A stretch of DNA of 54,835 nucleotides from Puniceicoccus vermicola (GTDB lineage Bacteria > Verrucomicrobiota > Verrucomicrobiia > Opitutales > Puniceicoccaceae): contig NZ_JACHVA010000019.1 of the NCBI RefSeq assembly GCF_014230055.1, forward strand, positions 1 to 54,835. The letters are read 5' to 3'. The notes under the pieces are model-generated. The model was not told where the DNA came from, made no database searches, and was given only the letters and a program-made list of their open reading frames with translations. The translations under genes were made by a program, and so were the position numbers. Below, in pieces: positions 2,191-54,835 of the stretch (its first letter is position 1; each line of letters opens with the position of its first letter).

Positions 2191-2922
2191 TCAGTCTTCG
2201 GCTGTGACGACTGTGCCAATCGCCTCACCACAGACCGCCCGGCGAATGCTACCCTCTTCCTGCATGGAGAAGACGAGGATGGGCATCTTGTTGTCGAGAC
2301 AGAGGGAGAAGGCTGTAGAATCCATCACTTTGAGGCGCTTCCGGAGGGCCTCGAGGAAATCGAGTTTCTCATACTTCTTCGCATCCGGATACTTTTTCGG
2401 ATCCTTATCGTAGACCCCATCCACATTCGTGGCCTTCAAAATCACATCCGCTCCCATTTCACTGGCACGCAGGGCCGCGGTTGTATCCGTCGAGAAATAC
2501 GGGTTACCGGTCCCGGCAACAAAAATGACGATGCGCCCTTTTTCCAAGTGTCGCTTCGCCCGGCGGAGGATGAAAGGTTCGGCAATCTTCTCTACGGGAA
2601 TCGCACTCTGAACCCGAACGGGAATCCCCATCTTCTCGATGACATCCATAAAAGCCAAGCCGTTGATCACCGTAGACAACATTCCCATGTAGTCCCCGGT
2701 GGTGCGATCCACACCGCGCTTTTCCCCTTTCAGTCCTCGGAAGATGTTTCCCCCGCCGACGACGATCGCAATCTCCACGCCCAGTTCGTGCACCTCTTTG
2801 AGCTGCCGAGCGATTGACTCCAGAACCGGAGGATCAAACGGTTCGCCCGTCTCCCGATTCAAGAGAGCTTCTCCGCTCAGTTTGATTACGACGCGTTTAT
2901 ATTTCGGTTCTTGATTTCCCAT
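2191..2922 (-). CDS. pyrH: Uridylate kinase (UMP kinase)
   Basis: Amino-acid-kinase-fold enzyme that phosphorylates UMP to UDP with ATP, the first committed step from UMP to UTP and CTP. It acts in the cytoplasm, usually as a hexamer. Visible family motifs are KLSGEAL near the N-terminus, the glycine-rich VGGGN segment, GDYMGML, and [14 protein letters not shown] followed by [14 protein letters not shown]. The chosen start gives 243 aa, the usual family length, beginning [11 protein letters not shown]. An in-frame ATG nine codons upstream (2949) would give 252 aa and cannot be excluded. In many bacteria pyrH is followed by frr. Here it is followed only by repeats. Confidence 0.95.
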
Positions 2923-2949
2923 GTTTTGAAAGCCCACCAAGGGGTTCAT

Positions 2950-3029
2950 TAGCCTATCGAATCTCTCCCGTCAAGAAGCAGCCCCGAGAAGTCTCTTTTT
3001 CTCGACGATTATCGAAATGCGGAAAAACA
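2950..3029. other. Intergenic stretch
   Basis: This is the region upstream of pyrH, ahead of the first REP-like array. I see no clear promoter or gene in it. Confidence 0.4.
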
Positions 3030-3360
3030 GGAGCGGAAGCGCGATAGCGATTTCGATGCGCCCGGAAAAGCCAGAACTCTGCCCGAACATTCGTAGAAAT
3101 GGCTATCGCCATTCCTCTCCACTGTAGAGACCGGCCAACAGGAAATTTGGAGCGGAAGCGCGAGAACGATTTCGATGTGTCCGGAGAAGCCAGAACCCTG
3201 CCCGACTATTCGTAGAAATGGCTATCGCCATTCCTCTCCACTGTAGAGACCGGACAACAAGAGATTTGGAGCGGAAGCGCGAGAGCGATTTCGATGCGCC
3301 CCGGAGAAGCCAGAACCCTGTCCGACTATTCGTAGAAATGGCTATCGCCATTCCTCTCCG
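3030..3360. repeat. REP-like tandem array, about 120-bp period, 3 units
   Basis: Three units place the motif CGTAGAAATGGCTATCGCC at 3092, 3211 and 3331. Between them lies GAGCGGAAGCGCGAKAGCGA (3031, 3150 and about 3269), whose reverse complement is a close variant of the first motif (GAAATCGCTCTCGCGCTTCC against GAAATGGCTATCGCCATTCC). The array therefore alternates one motif in opposite orientations. Open frames across it are artefacts of the repeat. Confidence 0.85.
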
Positions 3361-3500
3361 GAAGATTTTGGAACGGTCATAGTCCATCCGTTTTCCAAAA
3401 ATCGTATTTGGCTGACCATTCACATTCCCTCTCATCCCCACTAAAATCTAGGGGGTCTTCAGAAAAATGATAATTTCTTAAATTTTCTTCGATTTCGGGC

Positions 3501-3529
3501 TTGATCTAGTTCCAAAACCCTCTTGTATT
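3501..3529 (+). promoter_or_regulatory. Promoter of tRNA-Glu
   Basis: TTGATC (3501-3506) and TGTATT (3524-3529) are separated by exactly 17 bp. They lie 16 bp upstream of the mature tRNA 5' end, a good sigma-70-type arrangement for a stable RNA gene. Confidence 0.6.
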
Positions 3530-3545
3530 CCCATCTTTTTACCGC

Positions 3546-3623
3546 GTCCCGTTCGTCTAGCCAGGCCTAGGACACTGGGTTTTCATCCCAGCAACAGGGG
3601 TTCGAATCCCCTACGGGACGCCA
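3546..3623 (+). tRNA. tRNA-Glu (anticodon TTC)
   Basis: The acceptor stem GTCCCGT pairs with ACGGGAC. The anticodon stem CTGGG/CCCAG holds the loop TTTTCAT, giving anticodon TTC for glutamate. The T-arm contains GGGGTTCGAATCCCC. The discriminator G and an encoded CCA end the gene at 3623. The sequence closely follows the bacterial tRNA-Glu pattern. Confidence 0.95.
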
Positions 3624-3641
3624 TTTTAAAAAAGACGAAGA

Positions 3642-3673
3642 AAGTCAGCACCGAAAGGGAGCTGGCTTTTTTT
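3642..3673 (+). terminator. Rho-independent terminator of tRNA-Glu
   Basis: AAGTCAGC (3642-3649) pairs with GCTGGCTT (3661-3668) over 8 bp, including one G-U pair. The stem is followed by a run of T to 3673 and lies 18 bp downstream of the tRNA. Confidence 0.75.
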
Positions 3674-3825
3674 GTGATCGGATTTTTGGGCTCTCATTCG
3701 ACGCATGGATCCCCCCAAAACCTGGCGATTCCTCTCTGCGAAATTCCGAGAACCTTTCCCCAGGAGGGCGATTGTCGCAATCGCCGCAGTGCGAACCCCA
3801 TCCATCAAAAGAGGGTCCAGAAAAC

Positions 3826-4338
3826 GTTCGTAGAAATGGCTATCGCCATTCCTCTCCACCGAATAGACTGGCTAACGGGAACTTTGGAGCGGAAGCGCGA
3901 CAGCGATTTCGATGCGGCCCGTGAAGTCGGTGCTTTGCCCGACCCTTCGTAGAAATGGCTCTCGCCATTCCTCTCCACCGAAGAGACTGGCTAACGGGAA
4001 CTTCGTAGCGGAAGCGCGACAGCGATTTCGATGCGACCCGTGAAGCCGGTGCTTTGCCCGACCCTTCGTAGAAATGGCTCTCGCCATTCCTCTCCACCGA
4101 AGAGACCGGCTAACGGGAACTTTGGAGCGGAAGCGCGACAGCGATTTCGATGCGACCCGTGAAGCCGGTGCTTTGCCCGACCCTTCGTAGAAATGGCTCT
4201 CGCCATTCCTCTCCACCGAAGAGACTGGCTAACGGGAACTTTGGAGCGGAAGCGCGACAGCGATTTCGATGCGGCCCGTGAAGCCGGTGCTTTGCCCGAC
4301 CCTTCGTAGAAATGGCTCTGGCCATTCCTCTCCGTAAG
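3826..4338. repeat. REP-like tandem array, exact 119-bp period, 5 units
   Basis: CGTAGAAATGGCT begins at 3829, 3948, 4067, 4186 and 4305, four exact 119-bp steps. The inverted counterpart, containing GCGGAAGCGCGACAGCGATT, sits between successive copies. Units are nearly identical, so expansion looks recent. The array ends about 25 bp before the stop codon of the minus-strand peptidase gene. It belongs to the same family as the array at 3030-3360, from which it is separated by tRNA-Glu. Confidence 0.9.
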
Positions 4339-4363
4339 CTCGAGATGGTGATCGCGACTCCGA

Positions 4364-5587
4364 CTAGTCCTGCCCCTGCGGGAGGAGGAAGAGAGTCGAT
4401 CCGGGATCGACCGAGAACTTTTCCGACCACCAATCCTTGATTTCTCCGGGGGTGACGGCGTCATAAAATGCCTCGGAGGATTCGCCTAGGTCCGTATTCA
4501 GACCTTGAACACTCCGCACGGCCAATCGTTGAGCACGCCAACTTGAGCGCTGTCGACTGAGCAATAAGCCGGATCGGCATTGCGCGATACCCGCAGAAAA
4601 CTCATCCTCTGAAAATCCGCGGACGGCGATCCGCTGGAGAATCTCCTGCAAACGCTCGAGGAGGAAATTGGTCTGGCTCTCTTCACAACCCGAGACAAAG
4701 GCAATCAATCCCCGGTCCCGTCCGGCGACCAACCGGGCGGTCGAATAGTAAGCGAGTCCATGACGCTCCCGTATTTCCTCAAAAAGGGGTCCTGAGAGGC
4801 CGTTTAGGCAGCTCAGGGCTAGCTGTCTCTCATGAGCCGAGGAATCCCCATATCCGCCGCTGCGCAAGGCGTGAACGACGACGCTCTGCTCGCGGGGATG
4901 GCGCACGATTTCCCGGAACGTTTGTAGAGGCTCTTCATCGACCTGCCGCAAAGGCTCCCGACCTCCGGGATCCTGCCCGTCGAGCAAAGACTCCGCCAAG
5001 GCCCGCACCGAATCAGGATCGAATTCTCCACTGATTCCCAGTGACCTCGGCGAGCGCTCTCGAAACTGCTCTCCGAAATGCATCAAACTCTCCTCCGTTG
5101 CGCTCCTGAGATCTGTCTCCGAACCGAGGGGAGAGAGCCCCAGAGCCTCGGAGCCCAACAATTTCCTCCGCATCTGACGCAGTCCTTCGGAGGAAGGATC
5201 ATCCCGCTCTTCTTGGATTAGAGCCACACGCGCAGCCGATTCCCGTGCGCACAGGGACTTTTCAAGCTGAAAGCGACCTTCCATCAGAAGCCTAAGGGTC
5301 CGCAGGGACTCTCCGAGAACTTCCGGGAGGCAGGAATACCTGAGGCCACAGGCCCCATCTCCACAAAACGCGTGCAATCCACTCCCCCACTCGTCGAACT
5401 TGCGGGCGATTTCTTCTTCCGGGAGGATTCCCGCCCCCGACCGCAATATTTCCAGAAAAAGAGCGGTAAAGCCGAAGTTTCCTGCGGCCTCGTGCACCTC
5501 CGGTCCGGGAAAGGCCAAAGCCACACTGACCATCCCTGATCCCGGAAGCGGATCGAGCTGGAGAGGTTCGAAGTTCCCGAGGCTCAT
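4364..5587 (-). CDS. M16-family peptidase-like protein, non-catalytic partner
   Basis: 407 aa when started at the ATG that overlaps the stop codon of the preceding gene (ATGA, 5584-5587). The open frame continues further upstream, but that part overlaps the preceding gene and has no family features. The protein has the two-lobed M16 arrangement, with an R/Y region ('HGLAYYSTARLV') in the C-terminal half. It lacks the HxxEH zinc motif: the corresponding place reads FGFTALFLEILRSG. Many bacteria encode an active M16B subunit and an inactive one as neighbours that work as a heterodimer. The 4-bp overlap suggests translational coupling. Role beyond peptide or protein cleavage in the periplasm or cytoplasm is unknown; I see no signal peptide. 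Confidence 0.85.
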   Translation of the reverse strand: MSLGNFEPLQLDPLPGSGMVSVALAFPGPEVHEAAGNFGFTALFLEILRSGAGILPEEEIARKFDEWGSGLHAFCGDGACGLRYSCLPEVLGESLRTLRLLMEGRFQLEKSLCARESAARVALIQEERDDPSSEGLRQMRRKLLGSEALGLSPLGSETDLRSATEESLMHFGEQFRERSPRSLGISGEFDPDSVRALAESLLDGQDPGGREPLRQVDEEPLQTFREIVRHPREQSVVVHALRSGGYGDSSAHERQLALSCLNGLSGPLFEEIRERHGLAYYSTARLVAGRDRGLIAFVSGCEESQTNFLLERLQEILQRIAVRGFSEDEFSAGIAQCRSGLLLSRQRSSWRAQRLAVRSVQGLNTDLGESSEAFYDAVTPGEIKDWWSEKFSVDPGSTLFLLPQGQD

Positions 5588-33579: not shown

Positions 33580-34977
33580 ATGTGGACGATCATCTTCTTT
33601 CTCTGGTTTCTCTCTCAACTCGCTGGTTTTGGCGCCCTTATCCATCTACTCCTTTCGCGCAAACGCACGACCTCCCTGGTTCTCTGGGCCTTGTGGCTCC
33701 TGATCTTTCCAGCCTTGGGGATTCCACTCTACCTGACCATCGGCTCAGACCGAATTCGCCGCCGTTCGATCCCTTCCCATCCCCCGGGAGAGCACCTGGA
33801 AGACCCCAATGCGCCATTAGGCTCTCCCGAGATCGCTCCGCTCCTGCAGAACGTCTCCCACCTATCGGGAAACACCCTGACTCGTGCCAGCGGTCTCAAA
33901 CTTCTTCCCGATACCACGACCTACTACCCCCATCTTCTGGAATCCATCGATAAGGCCGAGAAGTTCGTTCACATCCAGACCTACGTATTTCGGATGGACT
34001 CCGCGGGCGACCGCCTCCTCGAAGCCCTCTGCCGCGCCGCAAAACGCGGGGTCGAGGTTCGCCTTCTGGTCGATGAAATCGGTTCCGCTTCGACCCGAAC
34101 CCGCTATTTCAAACCCCTCATCCAGGCGGGTGGCCAGTTCAGCTGGTGCATGACCGTGCAGCCCTTCCGAAACCGCTATTTCCTGAATCTGCGCAATCAC
34201 CGGAAGATCCAGGTTATCGACGGCAAGATCGCCTACGTCGGAGGGATGAACTTCGGGGTCGAATACGAAGGCAAGGACTCTGAAGTCGGTCCTTGGCGCG
34301 ATATGCAAATGTCGGTTCGGGGGCCCGTCGTCGACGCCCTGCAAACCGTCTTCGCCACCGACTGGTCCTTCGCTACCGAGGAATGGCTGGCCGATCGCCA
34401 CTACACGGGATTCTCCAACGACGACGCCAATATTCCGGTCACCGTCGTCAACAGCGGCCCAGACGAGCCAGACCGTTCTTTCCTCAAGACCTTTATTTTC
34501 ACCTGCAATCACGCCAAGGAGAGGCTCGATGTCTTTACCCCCTACTTCGGTCCGGAAGAATCCGTCATCCTTGCCATGCAGCTGGCCGCACGCCGCGGAG
34601 TCCGCGTCCGGATGCTCATCCCCACCCCGAACGAACATCAATACATGGTCGATATTGGCCGGGCTCACTACGAACAACTCATGGAGGACGGGGTCGAGGT
34701 CTACGAATACCACGAAGCCGTTCACCACGGCAAAGTCTACATCATCGACGACAATCTATTCGTCCTCGGCTCGACCAATCTCGACGCTCGTTCGCTCCGA
34801 ATCAACTTCGAGACCACCCTCCTGATTGAGGATAGGGATACCGTCGCCCAGCTCGACAAACATTACGAAGTCTTCTTCGAACGGGCCGAACGCATCGAAC
34901 TTGAAAAATTCCGCAACCAACCGCTCACCGATAAATTAAAGCAAGGCATCTCCCGACTCTTTGTGCCGATCCTATGA
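33580..34977 (+). CDS. cls: Cardiolipin synthase (phospholipase D family)
   Basis: 465 aa. Two N-terminal membrane helices (about 3-25 and 31-54) precede the catalytic part. Two HKD motifs are intact: NHRKIQVIDGKIAYVGGMNF with H207, K209 and D214, and HHGKVYIIDDNLFVLGSTN with H383, K385 and D390. It joins two phosphatidylglycerols into cardiolipin at the inner membrane. Its last 4 bp overlap the start of the next gene (ATGA), so the two are probably translated together. Confidence 0.93.
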   Translation: MWTIIFFLWFLSQLAGFGALIHLLLSRKRTTSLVLWALWLLIFPALGIPLYLTIGSDRIRRRSIPSHPPGEHLEDPNAPLGSPEIAPLLQNVSHLSGNTLTRASGLKLLPDTTTYYPHLLESIDKAEKFVHIQTYVFRMDSAGDRLLEALCRAAKRGVEVRLLVDEIGSASTRTRYFKPLIQAGGQFSWCMTVQPFRNRYFLNLRNHRKIQVIDGKIAYVGGMNFGVEYEGKDSEVGPWRDMQMSVRGPVVDALQTVFATDWSFATEEWLADRHYTGFSNDDANIPVTVVNSGPDEPDRSFLKTFIFTCNHAKERLDVFTPYFGPEESVILAMQLAARRGVRVRMLIPTPNEHQYMVDIGRAHYEQLMEDGVEVYEYHEAVHHGKVYIIDDNLFVLGSTNLDARSLRINFETTLLIEDRDTVAQLDKHYEVFFERAERIELEKFRNQPLTDKLKQGISRLFVPIL

Positions 34978-35768
34978 AATTCCGCCTTCTCAGCTTCAAC
35001 GTCCAAAATCGGCGGACCGAACGCACCGCCCACCTTCGCAGCCGCATGGCGGAGATCGCCGATCTCATCCTCGCGCAAAAGCCCGACGCCGTCTGCCTCC
35101 AAGAGGTTCTCCCCGAAGCCTACCCCTACCTCCTCGAACGAATCGCTCCGAAGGACGCGGTCTTCTATCCCCGTGAAGACGGCACCCATACCGGCGAAGG
35201 GGTGCCCATTATGCTTCTCGGCGATTGCTTCTCCGTTTTCCACTCGGATCGGTTCTGGCTCTCCCCCACGCCGGATGAACCCTCGATCGGCTGGAAGGCC
35301 CGCTGCCATCGGCTGGCCGGAGTCCTCGGCCTCCACCCGAACCAAGATCCGGAGACCCGTGTCTGGCTCATCAATCTTCATCTCGACCACAAGAGCCGGG
35401 AGTCCCGGGCGCGCAGCCTCGAACTGCTGGAACAACGGCTTGAGACCTACGACCGCAATCCCGACGACCACATTCTCCTTTGCGGCGATTTCAACATGAG
35501 ACCGCGCAACCCTCTTTTTCAGGAACTCCTTTCCGGCCCCCCGGGTTTCAAGGACGCTTCCCGTAAAGAAGGAAAACCGGACCGCAGCCAAACCTTCCAC
35601 GGCTGGAGCCCTCTTCGCCTCGGCCGCGGACGCCTCGACTACTGCTTCCACACCCCCGAACTGCATTGCCAGGAATACCACGTCATTCCCGCCGCCATCG
35701 ACGGGCGCCGGCTCTCCGATCACAACCTCATTCTGACTGAGTTCGAATCCACTCGCTCGGCCGGATGA
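34974..35768 (+). CDS. Endonuclease/exonuclease/phosphatase-fold protein
   Basis: 264 aa, no signal peptide. EEP-fold motifs: 'RLLSFNVQNRR', 'DAVCLQEV' (metal-binding E), 'WLINLHLDHKS', 'LLCGDFNMRP' and 'RLSDHNLI' (catalytic DH). The family includes nucleases, inositol phosphatases and sphingomyelinase-like phosphodiesterases. Coupling with cls through a 4-bp overlap makes a phospholipid-related phosphodiesterase more likely than a DNase, but this is inference from context. Confidence 0.85.
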   Translation: MKFRLLSFNVQNRRTERTAHLRSRMAEIADLILAQKPDAVCLQEVLPEAYPYLLERIAPKDAVFYPREDGTHTGEGVPIMLLGDCFSVFHSDRFWLSPTPDEPSIGWKARCHRLAGVLGLHPNQDPETRVWLINLHLDHKSRESRARSLELLEQRLETYDRNPDDHILLCGDFNMRPRNPLFQELLSGPPGFKDASRKEGKPDRSQTFHGWSPLRLGRGRLDYCFHTPELHCQEYHVIPAAIDGRRLSDHNLILTEFESTRSAG

Positions 35769-35832
35769 GCGAGGAGCCCGGATTGAAGGTTTGAAAGGTG
35801 AAGATTTGGCTTTCGAGCCGATCACACGCGAA

Positions 35833-35861
35833 TCGAGAGCTGGAAGCTCTCGCTACTCTGG
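35833..35861. repeat. Single copy of the GAGAGCT-GGA-AGCTCTC hairpin repeat
   Basis: An intact copy with the usual CGCTACT tail lies directly upstream of the 271-bp structured element. On the opposite strand it reads GTAG followed by the palindrome. Confidence 0.75.
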
Positions 35862-35881
35862 GCTCTCCCCGAACTCGCATT

Positions 35882-36152
35882 ATACCGAATTTAGGAAGTT
35901 TTGATAGTTATGGCGGGATGGGAAATGAGTCTGAGCAAGGCGGCCCAATTGGAGGCGGGTCTGCGACCCGTGCCAATTGGGCTAACGCTGCTCGGGCTCA
36001 TTTCCCGCCCGTCCCAGGGGGATGCGTCCAGAATCGAAGGTCGCGGCGTTGCAGGGATCGGAGCGTATCTCGATACTAATCAGATCCCTGCGCCTTGCGC
36101 TGCTTCGATTCTGCGCTGCACCATAACGGTCAAACCTTACTAAATTCGGTAT
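35882..36152. mobile_element. MITE-like element folding as a three-way junction
   Basis: Terminal inverted repeats of 31 bp (35882-35912 and 36122-36152) match at 27 positions and begin ATACCGAATTTAG. Inside are two further imperfect palindromes of about 40 bp per arm. Arm 1 (about 35913-36015) is capped by GCCCAATTGG..CCAATTGGGC with an inner CGGGTC-TGC-GACCCG. Arm 2 (about 36021-36121) contains AGAATCGAAG..CTTCGATTCT and CAGGGATC..GATCCCTG. Almost every base lies in one of the three stems. There is no coding potential and no clear target duplication. Non-autonomous mobile element or large structured RNA are both possible. Confidence 0.6.
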
Positions 36153-36412
36153 TACTTGAGTCGTGCGATTCCCACGATAGGGCCCAAATTCCCACCGGCC
36201 TACCGACTCACCGACCCACCGACTCACCGACCCACCGACTCACCGCATTCGCGGAAATCCCTGGCCTTGGGATTTGCAGGGAAGGTGGAATGCCGTTTGG
36301 CTCTCTTTCCGTGGCGAGAAAATCAAATGGAAAACTTTGGGCGGAATTCGTCCGCAGCGGAGGAACGGCGAAAAACCGGGCCTCCACTCCGGAACGGGTC
36401 GACCGACGTCCG
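36153..36412. other. Intergenic stretch upstream of ruvC
   Basis: No gene seen. It contains the 16-bp tandem repeat at 36204-36246. An open plus-strand frame runs through to ruvC, but without recognisable protein features. Confidence 0.4.
36204..36246. repeat. 16-bp tandem repeat, about 2.7 copies
   Basis: CCGACTCACCGACCCA is repeated head to tail without mismatch, ending in CCGACTCACCG. It is non-coding and about 170 bp upstream of ruvC. Its function is unknown. Confidence 0.8.
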
Positions 36413-36907
36413 ATGGACGGCATCATTCTCGGAGTCGATCCCAGTCTACGCGGGACGGGGATCGCTGTGATCGAAACCAAGGGACGCCAGGCGACCCTGC
36501 TTCACTCCGAGGTTTTTCGATTTCCGCCGTCTTACAAAACGGAGGGATGCATTGGCGAGATATCCCGGCGCCTCGATAAGATTCTTCAGGATTTCCCCAT
36601 CAAAGTTGCTGCCGTCGAAGAGGCCATCTACGTCCAGAATTATCGGACCGCACTGGTTCTGGGAGCCGCCCGCGGATCGGCGATCGCTGCCATGGTCCTT
36701 CGCGGGGTTGAAATTAACGAATATCCCCCGCTCCGCATCAAACAAGCCGTGGTGGGCTACGGTCGAGCGAGTAAGGAGCAATTGCGCAGCACTCTTGTGC
36801 AGATGGTCGCTGGCGCGACCGAGAAAATCTCCCTCGACGAGTCCGATGCGACCGCGGTCGCCATGTGCCACTGGTTCACGACCAAACGGCCCCACATCAC
36901 CTCCTGA
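36413..36907 (+). CDS. ruvC: Holliday junction endonuclease RuvC
   Basis: 164 aa from ATG 36413, the normal length. The catalytic acidic residues are D9 (LGVDP), E69/E70 (AVEEAIY), D142 and D145 (LDESDA). It cuts Holliday junctions during recombination repair, in complex with RuvAB. ruvA and ruvB are not in the window. The next gene, crtI-like, begins 28 bp downstream on the same strand. Confidence 0.93.
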   Translation: MDGIILGVDPSLRGTGIAVIETKGRQATLLHSEVFRFPPSYKTEGCIGEISRRLDKILQDFPIKVAAVEEAIYVQNYRTALVLGAARGSAIAAMVLRGVEINEYPPLRIKQAVVGYGRASKEQLRSTLVQMVAGATEKISLDESDATAVAMCHWFTTKRPHITS

Positions 36908-54433: not shown

Positions 54434-54835
54434 CTTAAGCTGCCGCAAAACCTCGAAAACGCTTCCGAAGCCCCCAAGAACCCTTCTCGCCAAACCGATC
54501 CGTTCACGCCATCGCACGGTGGGCGCTGAAGCGACCCACCCACTGTGGGGCACGGCCTTCAGCCTTGCCCGCGCAAACTCGAAAACGCTTCCCATAGATC
54601 CAAAGAACACTGCTCGCCAAACCGATCCGCTCACTCCATCGCACGGTGGGCGCTGAAGCGACCCACCCACTGTGGGGCACGGCCTTCAGCCTTGCCCGCG
54701 CAAACTCGGAAACGCTCCCCACAGATCCAAAGAACCCTTCTCGCCAAACCGATCCGCTCACTCTATCGCACGGTGGGCGCTGAAGCGACCCACCCACTGT
54801 GGGGCACGGCCTTCAGCCTTGCCCGCGCAAACTCG
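54434..54835. repeat. 127-bp tandem array running past the window edge
   Basis: 'gcacggtgggcgctgaagcg' begins at 54514, 54641 and 54768, an exact 127-bp period. Each unit holds GGTGGGCGCTGAAGCGACCCACC, a hairpin, and a second potential stem GGGCA..TGCCC. The last unit is cut by the end of the window, so total copy number is unknown. Frames open across it are repeat artefacts. Confidence 0.88.

Follow-up and report, generated by a model that had tools for sequence, protein, structure and literature searches.

A mobile repeat of MITE form with a folded core kept by compensatory change in Verrucomicrobiota

The element described here lies in a 54,835-nucleotide stretch of Puniceicoccus vermicola DNA (the window), between a gene of the endonuclease/exonuclease/phosphatase family (34974-35768, plus strand; Pfam PF03372, E 4.3e-18) and ruvC (36311-36907, plus strand; Pfam PF02075, E 5.5e-31; start inferred from the relative L052), both of which are outside it. 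A prediction made from the sequence alone had placed it at 35882-36152, a span of 271 bp, with outer repeats matching at 27 of 31 positions; the coordinates are exact, and the count was borne out on recounting. The left terminal inverted repeat (TIR; 35882-35913, plus strand) ends in ATGG and is matched at 27 of 31 positions by the right TIR (36121-36152, minus strand), which begins with CCAT; other copies likewise end at this repeat. The element is flanked by two copies of TTA, at 35880-35882 and 36152-36154, the first sharing its last base with the element's outer A and the second its first base with the outer T. Since this outermost A and T are part of the 3-bp duplication, the element proper runs from about 35883 to 36151. 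Its G+C content is 55%, against 56% for the window. Three overlapping frames of 80-93 amino acids cross it, and the ruvC open frame runs in from the right; the letters of these frames suggest nothing gene-like, in line with the predicted lack of coding capacity. Like MITEs, the element is short, non-coding and bounded by TIRs.

The proximity to ruvC, which the prediction had allowed might be accidental, is probably chance, since other copies have different flanking sequence and L052 (Opitutia bacterium UBA4506) has the endonuclease-ruvC pair in the same order with no element. Approximately 42 bases stand there in place of approximately 520 in the window; this is an empty site at the level of the locus rather than a base-exact one, and the gap in the window also holds a REP-like palindrome and a small tandem repeat. 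The latter, with an 8-bp unit (ACCGACTC/ACCGACCC), occupies 36202-36245, between the element and ruvC. Two longer tandem arrays are found at 2913-4397 and 54473-54835, with periods of 119 bp and 127 bp, the second reaching the end of the contig.

The original prediction had proposed comparing the fold of the element with that of shuffled sequence. As RNA, the plus strand has a predicted free energy of -161.7 kcal/mol, whereas shuffled versions average -94.7 (z -12.9) and none of 200 is as good; as DNA the z values are -12.4 for the minus strand and -13.0 for the plus strand, so that in either form the fold is far better than that of shuffled sequence. The elaborate fold that had been foreseen is therefore real; the junction at its centre, predicted to be three-way, is four-way, because a small hairpin (36012-36022) sits between the two long ones. 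Its parts are the TIR stem, hairpin 1, the small central hairpin and hairpin 2. Hairpin 1 (35914-36011, plus strand; helices 3-5 of a 14-copy alignment described below) carries the conserved motifs GCAAGGCG in its 5′ arm (35935-35942) and AACGC in its 3′ arm (35984-35988). The central hairpin, TCCC...GGGA, is helix 6 of the same alignment and helix 1 of an alignment of the hairpin-2 domain. Hairpin 2 (36023-36120, plus strand; helices 7-9 and 2-5 of the two alignments, respectively) has conserved motifs at 36040-36050 (GTCGCGGCGTT, the reverse complement of the AACGCC-GC type) in its 5′ arm and at 36090-36103 (GCGCCTTGCGCTGC) in its 3′ arm, all four motifs being read on the plus strand. Some features are oriented, namely ATGGC on the left as against ATGGTGC on the right, and GGGATGCG.

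A search for further copies, also proposed in the original prediction, found them widely dispersed. In the genome that contains the window (G000; 5.2 Mb, 143 contigs) 24 places match over the full length, with identities of 79-100% (94% or more in 20), and there are fragments besides; 40 of the 46 candidates from a first pass were scored. A second genome of the genus, G001, has eight full-span copies at 81-91% identity and two more that are cut by contig ends. No copies were found in G002, also of this genus, and no match to the window element was found in phages and plasmids. An exact 3-bp TTA or TAA duplication flanks 25 of 32 copies (34 less two at contig edges; seven fail), as compared with 12.5 when right flanks were shuffled. 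The counts by genome are 19 of 24 for G000 and 6 of 8 for G001, the latter not significant alone (p 0.11). Three internally deleted copies (G000:C75, 10467-10659, 17023-17193 and 38179-38286) retain both ends and have their breakpoints within the hairpins.

A second type of element, A2, is present in G000 (G000:C38, 36923-37194) and also in G001; its TIRs differ (ATACCACTTCTRAAAAATTC) and its core is the same, so the genome that contains the window has elements with two types of end. TWA duplications flank 3 of 3 A2 copies and 6 of the 9 copies with both ends in view from a further family, B (L079, L179 and L186 fail), and are also found in family I. Taken together, these data show that the element is a mobile repeat of MITE form: the many copies, the TIRs, the 3-bp duplications and the element-free locus in L052 support the MITE guess of the original prediction. 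Of the empty sites and target duplications that it had suggested looking for, the duplications were found, and L052 gives a candidate empty site at the level of the locus.

By crude gene calls, which placed the left neighbour of the window copy itself on the wrong strand, called open frames overlap the element in 2 of 32 cases. Both neighbours were called for 30 copies: the flanking genes are tandem in 16, convergent in 10 and divergent in 4, and in the tandem cases the element has the same orientation as the genes in 7 and the opposite one in 9.

Conservation of the fold was measured in a chosen alignment of 14 copies (five of family A from G000, six from G001 and three A2). Of 111 base pairs, 47 change on both sides, as compared with 21.4 in shuffles; this is a strong success for the check on compensatory change that the original prediction had advised. 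In the same alignment 96.1% of cells pair, against 87.0% when shuffled and 34.7-41.0% with partners slid, a comparison in which the structure, having been derived from these copies, is somewhat favoured over the slid versions. Seven of nine helices, including the TIR stem, contain both-side changes; helices 4 and 8 contain the conserved motif and show almost no variation, so that they are uninformative either way. Set beside the window copy, A2 has 31 pairs in which both partners differ and pairing is retained, 8 with a difference on one side, 72 without any difference and 4 in which pairing is lost. In the hairpin-2 domain of five families, 91.2% of cells are paired (73.1% shuffled, 34-49% slid), and both partners have changed in 18 of 33 pairs; the number of further pair types is not exceptional, 99 of 500 shuffles being as high. 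The fold is thus kept by compensatory change. The guess that the element might be a structured RNA stands in part, as covariation supports a structured nucleic acid but not RNA as such.

Pairing between arms is specific to each family. The inner and outer arms of hairpin 1 pair on average at -13.9 and -13.7 kcal/mol with their own partners, against -5.2 and -4.3 kcal/mol across families, in a test in which the motif missed hairpin 1 in 2 of 13 representatives. The corresponding values for hairpin 2 are -15.8 vs. -5.5 and -13.0 vs. -5.5 kcal/mol. Cross pairs as good as the median own pair numbered 0 of 100, 1 of 100, 0 of 146 and 10 of 146.

The two long hairpins share a motif in inverted form: GC-AAGGCG-(inner stem)-AACGCC-GC, subject to variation, is found in hairpin 1 and, on the opposite strand, in hairpin 2. 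R1, a covariance model of the hairpin-2 domain built from 18 sequences of five families, matches hairpin 1 of the window at 35910-36024 on the minus strand (44.9 bits, E 2e-10); no match besides hairpins 1 and 2 was found in the window at E up to 1. Opposite-strand matches of R1 to hairpin 1 were also obtained for a further five copies of family A (33-56 bits), for A2 copies (32-46 bits) and, outside the window's order, for L381 (41.0 bits), L383 (37.9 bits) and L385 (29.8 bits). Scores for hairpin 1 in families B, C and F are weak (18-27 bits) and no better than those of hairpin 2 on its own wrong strand (16-26 bits; L022, L066, L079 and L367), so in these three families the inverted homology is carried by the motif alone. 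Antisense matches at the four loci just named fall on hairpin 2 and were discounted as hairpin 1. At the threshold used, families D, H, I and J gave no hairpin-1 match to R1, and hairpin 1 is lost or reduced in the elements at L088 (190 bp long) and L101 (186 bp long).

The distribution of the core, followed in genomes of the window's phylum, extends well beyond the genus. An exact core 15-mer occurs in 21 of 273 genomes of the order and marks the element in 11 of them (one a half); the other 10 genomes were set aside, as their 11 loci (L057, L058, L067-L074 and L081) have no R1 match at E up to 0.1 and look, from their letters, like coding sequence. Across the phylum, R1 detects at least 9 of 387 genomes at a cut-off of E 0.001, which is a lower bound because filters were strict and only nine candidates were scored per genome. 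At E 0.01, 3 of 10 genomes from the order that includes G518 have a match, as do 6 of 189 from that of G429. Since about two chance genomes are expected among the 189, G744, G829 and G838 are regarded as tentative; paired ends are also visible at L388 (G829) and L390 (G838). Overall, the hairpin-2 domain is found at E ≤0.001 in 22 genomes of the phylum Verrucomicrobiota, 10 of which supplied sequences to the model and match by construction, while 12 contributed nothing to it. Fifteen belong to the window's order, three to another order of its class (G429, G710 and G738), and four are classed only to phylum (G476, G518, G582 and G699). Several carriers are incomplete: G476 lacks a TIR, G230 has half an element, G710 has pieces at contig edges, and in the 190-bp element of G078 hairpin 1 is reduced. 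A loose pattern picked out at least 120 stretches in viral contigs, and the best R1 score among 80 of them, 19.1 bits (E 0.034), is unconvincing.

Two of these genomes contain hairpin 2 in other settings. In G476 (L102 725-1479, L098 and L105) it is part of a dispersed repeat of approximately 210 bp that does not have this type of TIR and is present twice on one contig, approximately 410 bases apart. In G230, a solo hairpin 2 (L056, 1417-1533) directly follows a gene that is not a transposase; we take the flanking genes to be ruvX-like before it and rRNA methyltransferase-like after it.

The ends of these elements differ from family to family. Type A ends read TACCRAATTT; A2 ends read TACCACTTCTRAAAAATTC, with a close variant in G078; B ends, GAGGGYGTCTAAAAAGTCGA (G033, G048 and G063); D ends, GAGCAYTTTTCATCTAA (G082 and G116); F ends, GAGCATGTTCGCTTTAA (G055); I ends, GAGCCTATCCG (G518); and J ends, GGGTRTGTTT (G429). 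Types C (G034, G064 and G110) and H (G211) have ends of TACCA type, and further types are found in G582, G699 and G738. What distant genomes have in common is therefore the core and not the ends, which the original prediction had not foreseen. The retention of the folded middle while the ends change suggests that the folded shape itself does something.

The source of the activity that moves the element was sought through its ends. In the window's own genome the TIR pattern gave no pair at the distance expected of an IS. An A2-type end pattern allowing two mismatches has matches in 25 of 372 genomes, all covered by 30 loci; loci outside G000, G001 and G078 showed neither an R1 match nor a second end. 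Further leads gave no matching partner. Transposases of PF01609 have different ends wherever these could be read (CACTACTGTCCAGTTAG; GGCCGCGTGGACAAATT), others being cut at contig edges; unpaired family B ends in G048, G033 and G063 lead to contig ends or open frames, with no convincing second end; and ISAzo13 (PF07592) is nearly absent, occurring in 2 of 20 genomes (G064 and G518). As many contigs end at or inside IS copies, the absence of an autonomous partner is weak evidence. A parent IS would be expected to have TACCRAATTT or TACCACTTCT around a DDE gene.

A DDE transposase working on the TIRs would fit both these repeats and the 3-bp target duplication. Transposons of the Tc1/mariner-IS630 type duplicate only the 2-bp TA and do not fit: here the agreement extends to the middle base of TWA (26 of 32 copies vs. 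13.5 shuffled). The 3-bp TNA duplication of IS1031/IS5 is what is seen here (TTA or TAA, 25 of 32), and on the best reading the element is mobilised in trans by a putative DDE transposase with an IS1031/IS5-like target. According to PMC12016507, elements of the IS1031 subgroup of IS5 use TNA as their target and produce a 3-bp repeat on insertion, and the family B ends, GAGGGYGTCTAAAAAGT, resemble the GAACCTGTCTAGTATCT quoted there. Unlike that subgroup, the element has no transposase, and family A ends start with TACC.

MITEs are usually thought of as ends plus filler; here the conserved part is the middle and the variable part is the ends. Compared with bacterial MITEs as described in the review PMC10969869, the element is similarly short, free of genes, bounded by TIRs and target duplications, present in many mostly intergenic copies and predicted to fold stably. 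It differs in that its core is maintained through compensating substitutions and is common to families whose TIRs differ, and no parent IS was found for it; the same review describes MITEs as typically AT-rich, and the element here has 55% G+C. No description of the element was found in the literature searched, which was mostly at the level of titles and abstracts and included little subscription content.

We put at about even the chances that the element is a non-autonomous cut-and-paste MITE with a selected folded core, most likely acting at the level of DNA. A transposase supplied in trans would recognise the TIRs of approximately 31 bp, insert the element at TWA and duplicate 3 bp. The body would be the selected structure, consisting of two inverted-homologue hairpins joined by the small hairpin and closed by the TIR stem, each hairpin having a short G+C helix flanked by two AA bulges. 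As a single strand or a cruciform, it could bring the two ends together and offer two symmetric bulged hairpins to a putative protein, either a host factor or the transposase, thereby helping the element to spread. Set against this explanation, no transposase gene with matching ends was found, and hairpin 1 is weak, absent or lost in some families. More tentatively, and short of even odds, the folded core may define a class of mobile element, in which a phylum-wide dyad of bulged hairpins recruits a putative factor required for its spread while the ends evolve rapidly or are swapped to suit different transposases. If the core does help movement, the element would be selfish DNA that exploits its own fold. 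The dozens of natural variants in one genome offer a means of testing which bases matter.

Action as DNA is somewhat favoured over action as RNA, for four reasons. The element is a near-dyad in which each end is followed by one and the same hairpin, with identical polarity; minimum free energies do not consistently favour one strand, the plus strand being the better in 15 of 25 elements and in 9 of the 18 that are not of family A; the hairpin-2 alignment has about as many G-U as A-C cells (11 and 10), with no bias; and copies face either way relative to genes. Against action as DNA, the plus strand gives the better RNA fold in 6 of the 7 family A copies tested, the 25 elements together have 179 G-U pairs on the plus strand as compared with 129 on the minus, an excess that lies mostly in family A, and the oriented features would also fit an RNA. 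As a test for the active strand, the comparison of G-U with A-C was set aside as uninformative.

RNA is accordingly a serious rival, although we consider it rather unlikely. The core would be a structured RNA gene or cis-acting RNA riding on a MITE, forming its four-way junction on transcription from its own or a neighbouring promoter and using bulges and loops to bind a protein or make tertiary contacts; it would then be a phylum-wide mobile RNA family absent from Rfam. Conserved bulges, junction and loops combined with compensating stems are a classic RNA signature, and the oriented features of the junction and the plus-strand excess of G-U pairs are in its favour. However, a search of 35700-36400 against Rfam gave nothing at E up to 1, and at 11 loci with relatives only tRNA and group II matches reach the Rfam threshold, all outside the element; a sub-threshold match to mir-5985 (E 0.38) overlaps the L041 element. 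A simple consensus search of 35700-36500 showed no sigma-70-like promoter or intrinsic terminator. The near-even strand counts and the lack of a clear orientation preference relative to genes also count against RNA, as does the presence, in family A and some others, of hairpins 1 and 2 as inverted copies, which an RNA would not need. The element resembles the structured RNA families of Rfam 15 in its covarying stems with conserved unpaired bases, and is unlike them in lacking a threshold match, in folding about equally on both strands outside family A and in being flanked by TIRs and target duplications.

It is improbable that the element is an ordinary MITE whose palindromes have no function, the motif being inherited and the arms kept complementary by template-switch correction during replication. 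Covariation by itself can arise by template switching, and apparent traces of such correction are present: in L041 one arm of hairpin 1 has been turned into the near-perfect complement of the other, and in L022 and L087 hairpin 1 is inverted. These apparent events suggest that the hairpins form or recombine, and they make the survival of asymmetric bulges more telling, because correction should erase the AA bulges and should not keep loops or junction. Yet bulges, loops and junction all persist in families whose stems have largely changed, and distant genomes share the core and not the ends. A selected fold acting as DNA remains our preferred reading.

REPINs are pairs of inverted bulged hairpins, which the two hairpins here recall, and the window's genome has 50 Y1_Tnp matches; the guess that the element is a REPIN-like substrate of a single-strand (Y1/RAYT) transposase is nevertheless very improbable, since a Y1 match is lacking in 5 of the 16 carrier genomes tested (G055, G063, G078, G211 and G243, of which G211 is a single contig and G063 only 81% complete; 11 have one) and the element makes 3-bp target duplications, which are not expected of IS200/IS605-type elements. 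Neither GTAG nor CTAC occurs in the window's element, and 20 Y1 loci searched gave no R1 match. Compared with REPINs, RAYT-mobilised REP pairs and the TIRtrons of PMC3733652, the element similarly has an inverted hairpin pair and many, mostly intergenic copies; it differs from them in having no GTAG tag, in its long TIRs and target duplication, and in its presence in genomes with no Y1 match.

The window does contain REP-like palindromes of two families that end in CTAC (GTAG on the other strand), GGCGCAGCTGAAGCTGCGGCCCTAC and CGAGAGCTGGAAGCTCTCGCTAC. A first group lies at 35, 1752, 2043, 7528, 7913, 8298, 10932, 11090, 11247 and 22688, and a second at 228, 1497, 1789, 2080, 11286 and 35834; one palindrome is approximately 25 bases upstream of the element. 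At two Y1 loci of G000 (L217 and L227) the gene is surrounded by inverted repeats matching at 17 of 18 bp. The AAAAGGGGTCAG repeats of a G476 locus (L214) fit the GGGGWSAS motif given for TIRtrons in PMC3733652, and a near form of this type of repeat is found in G001 (L213 and L222).
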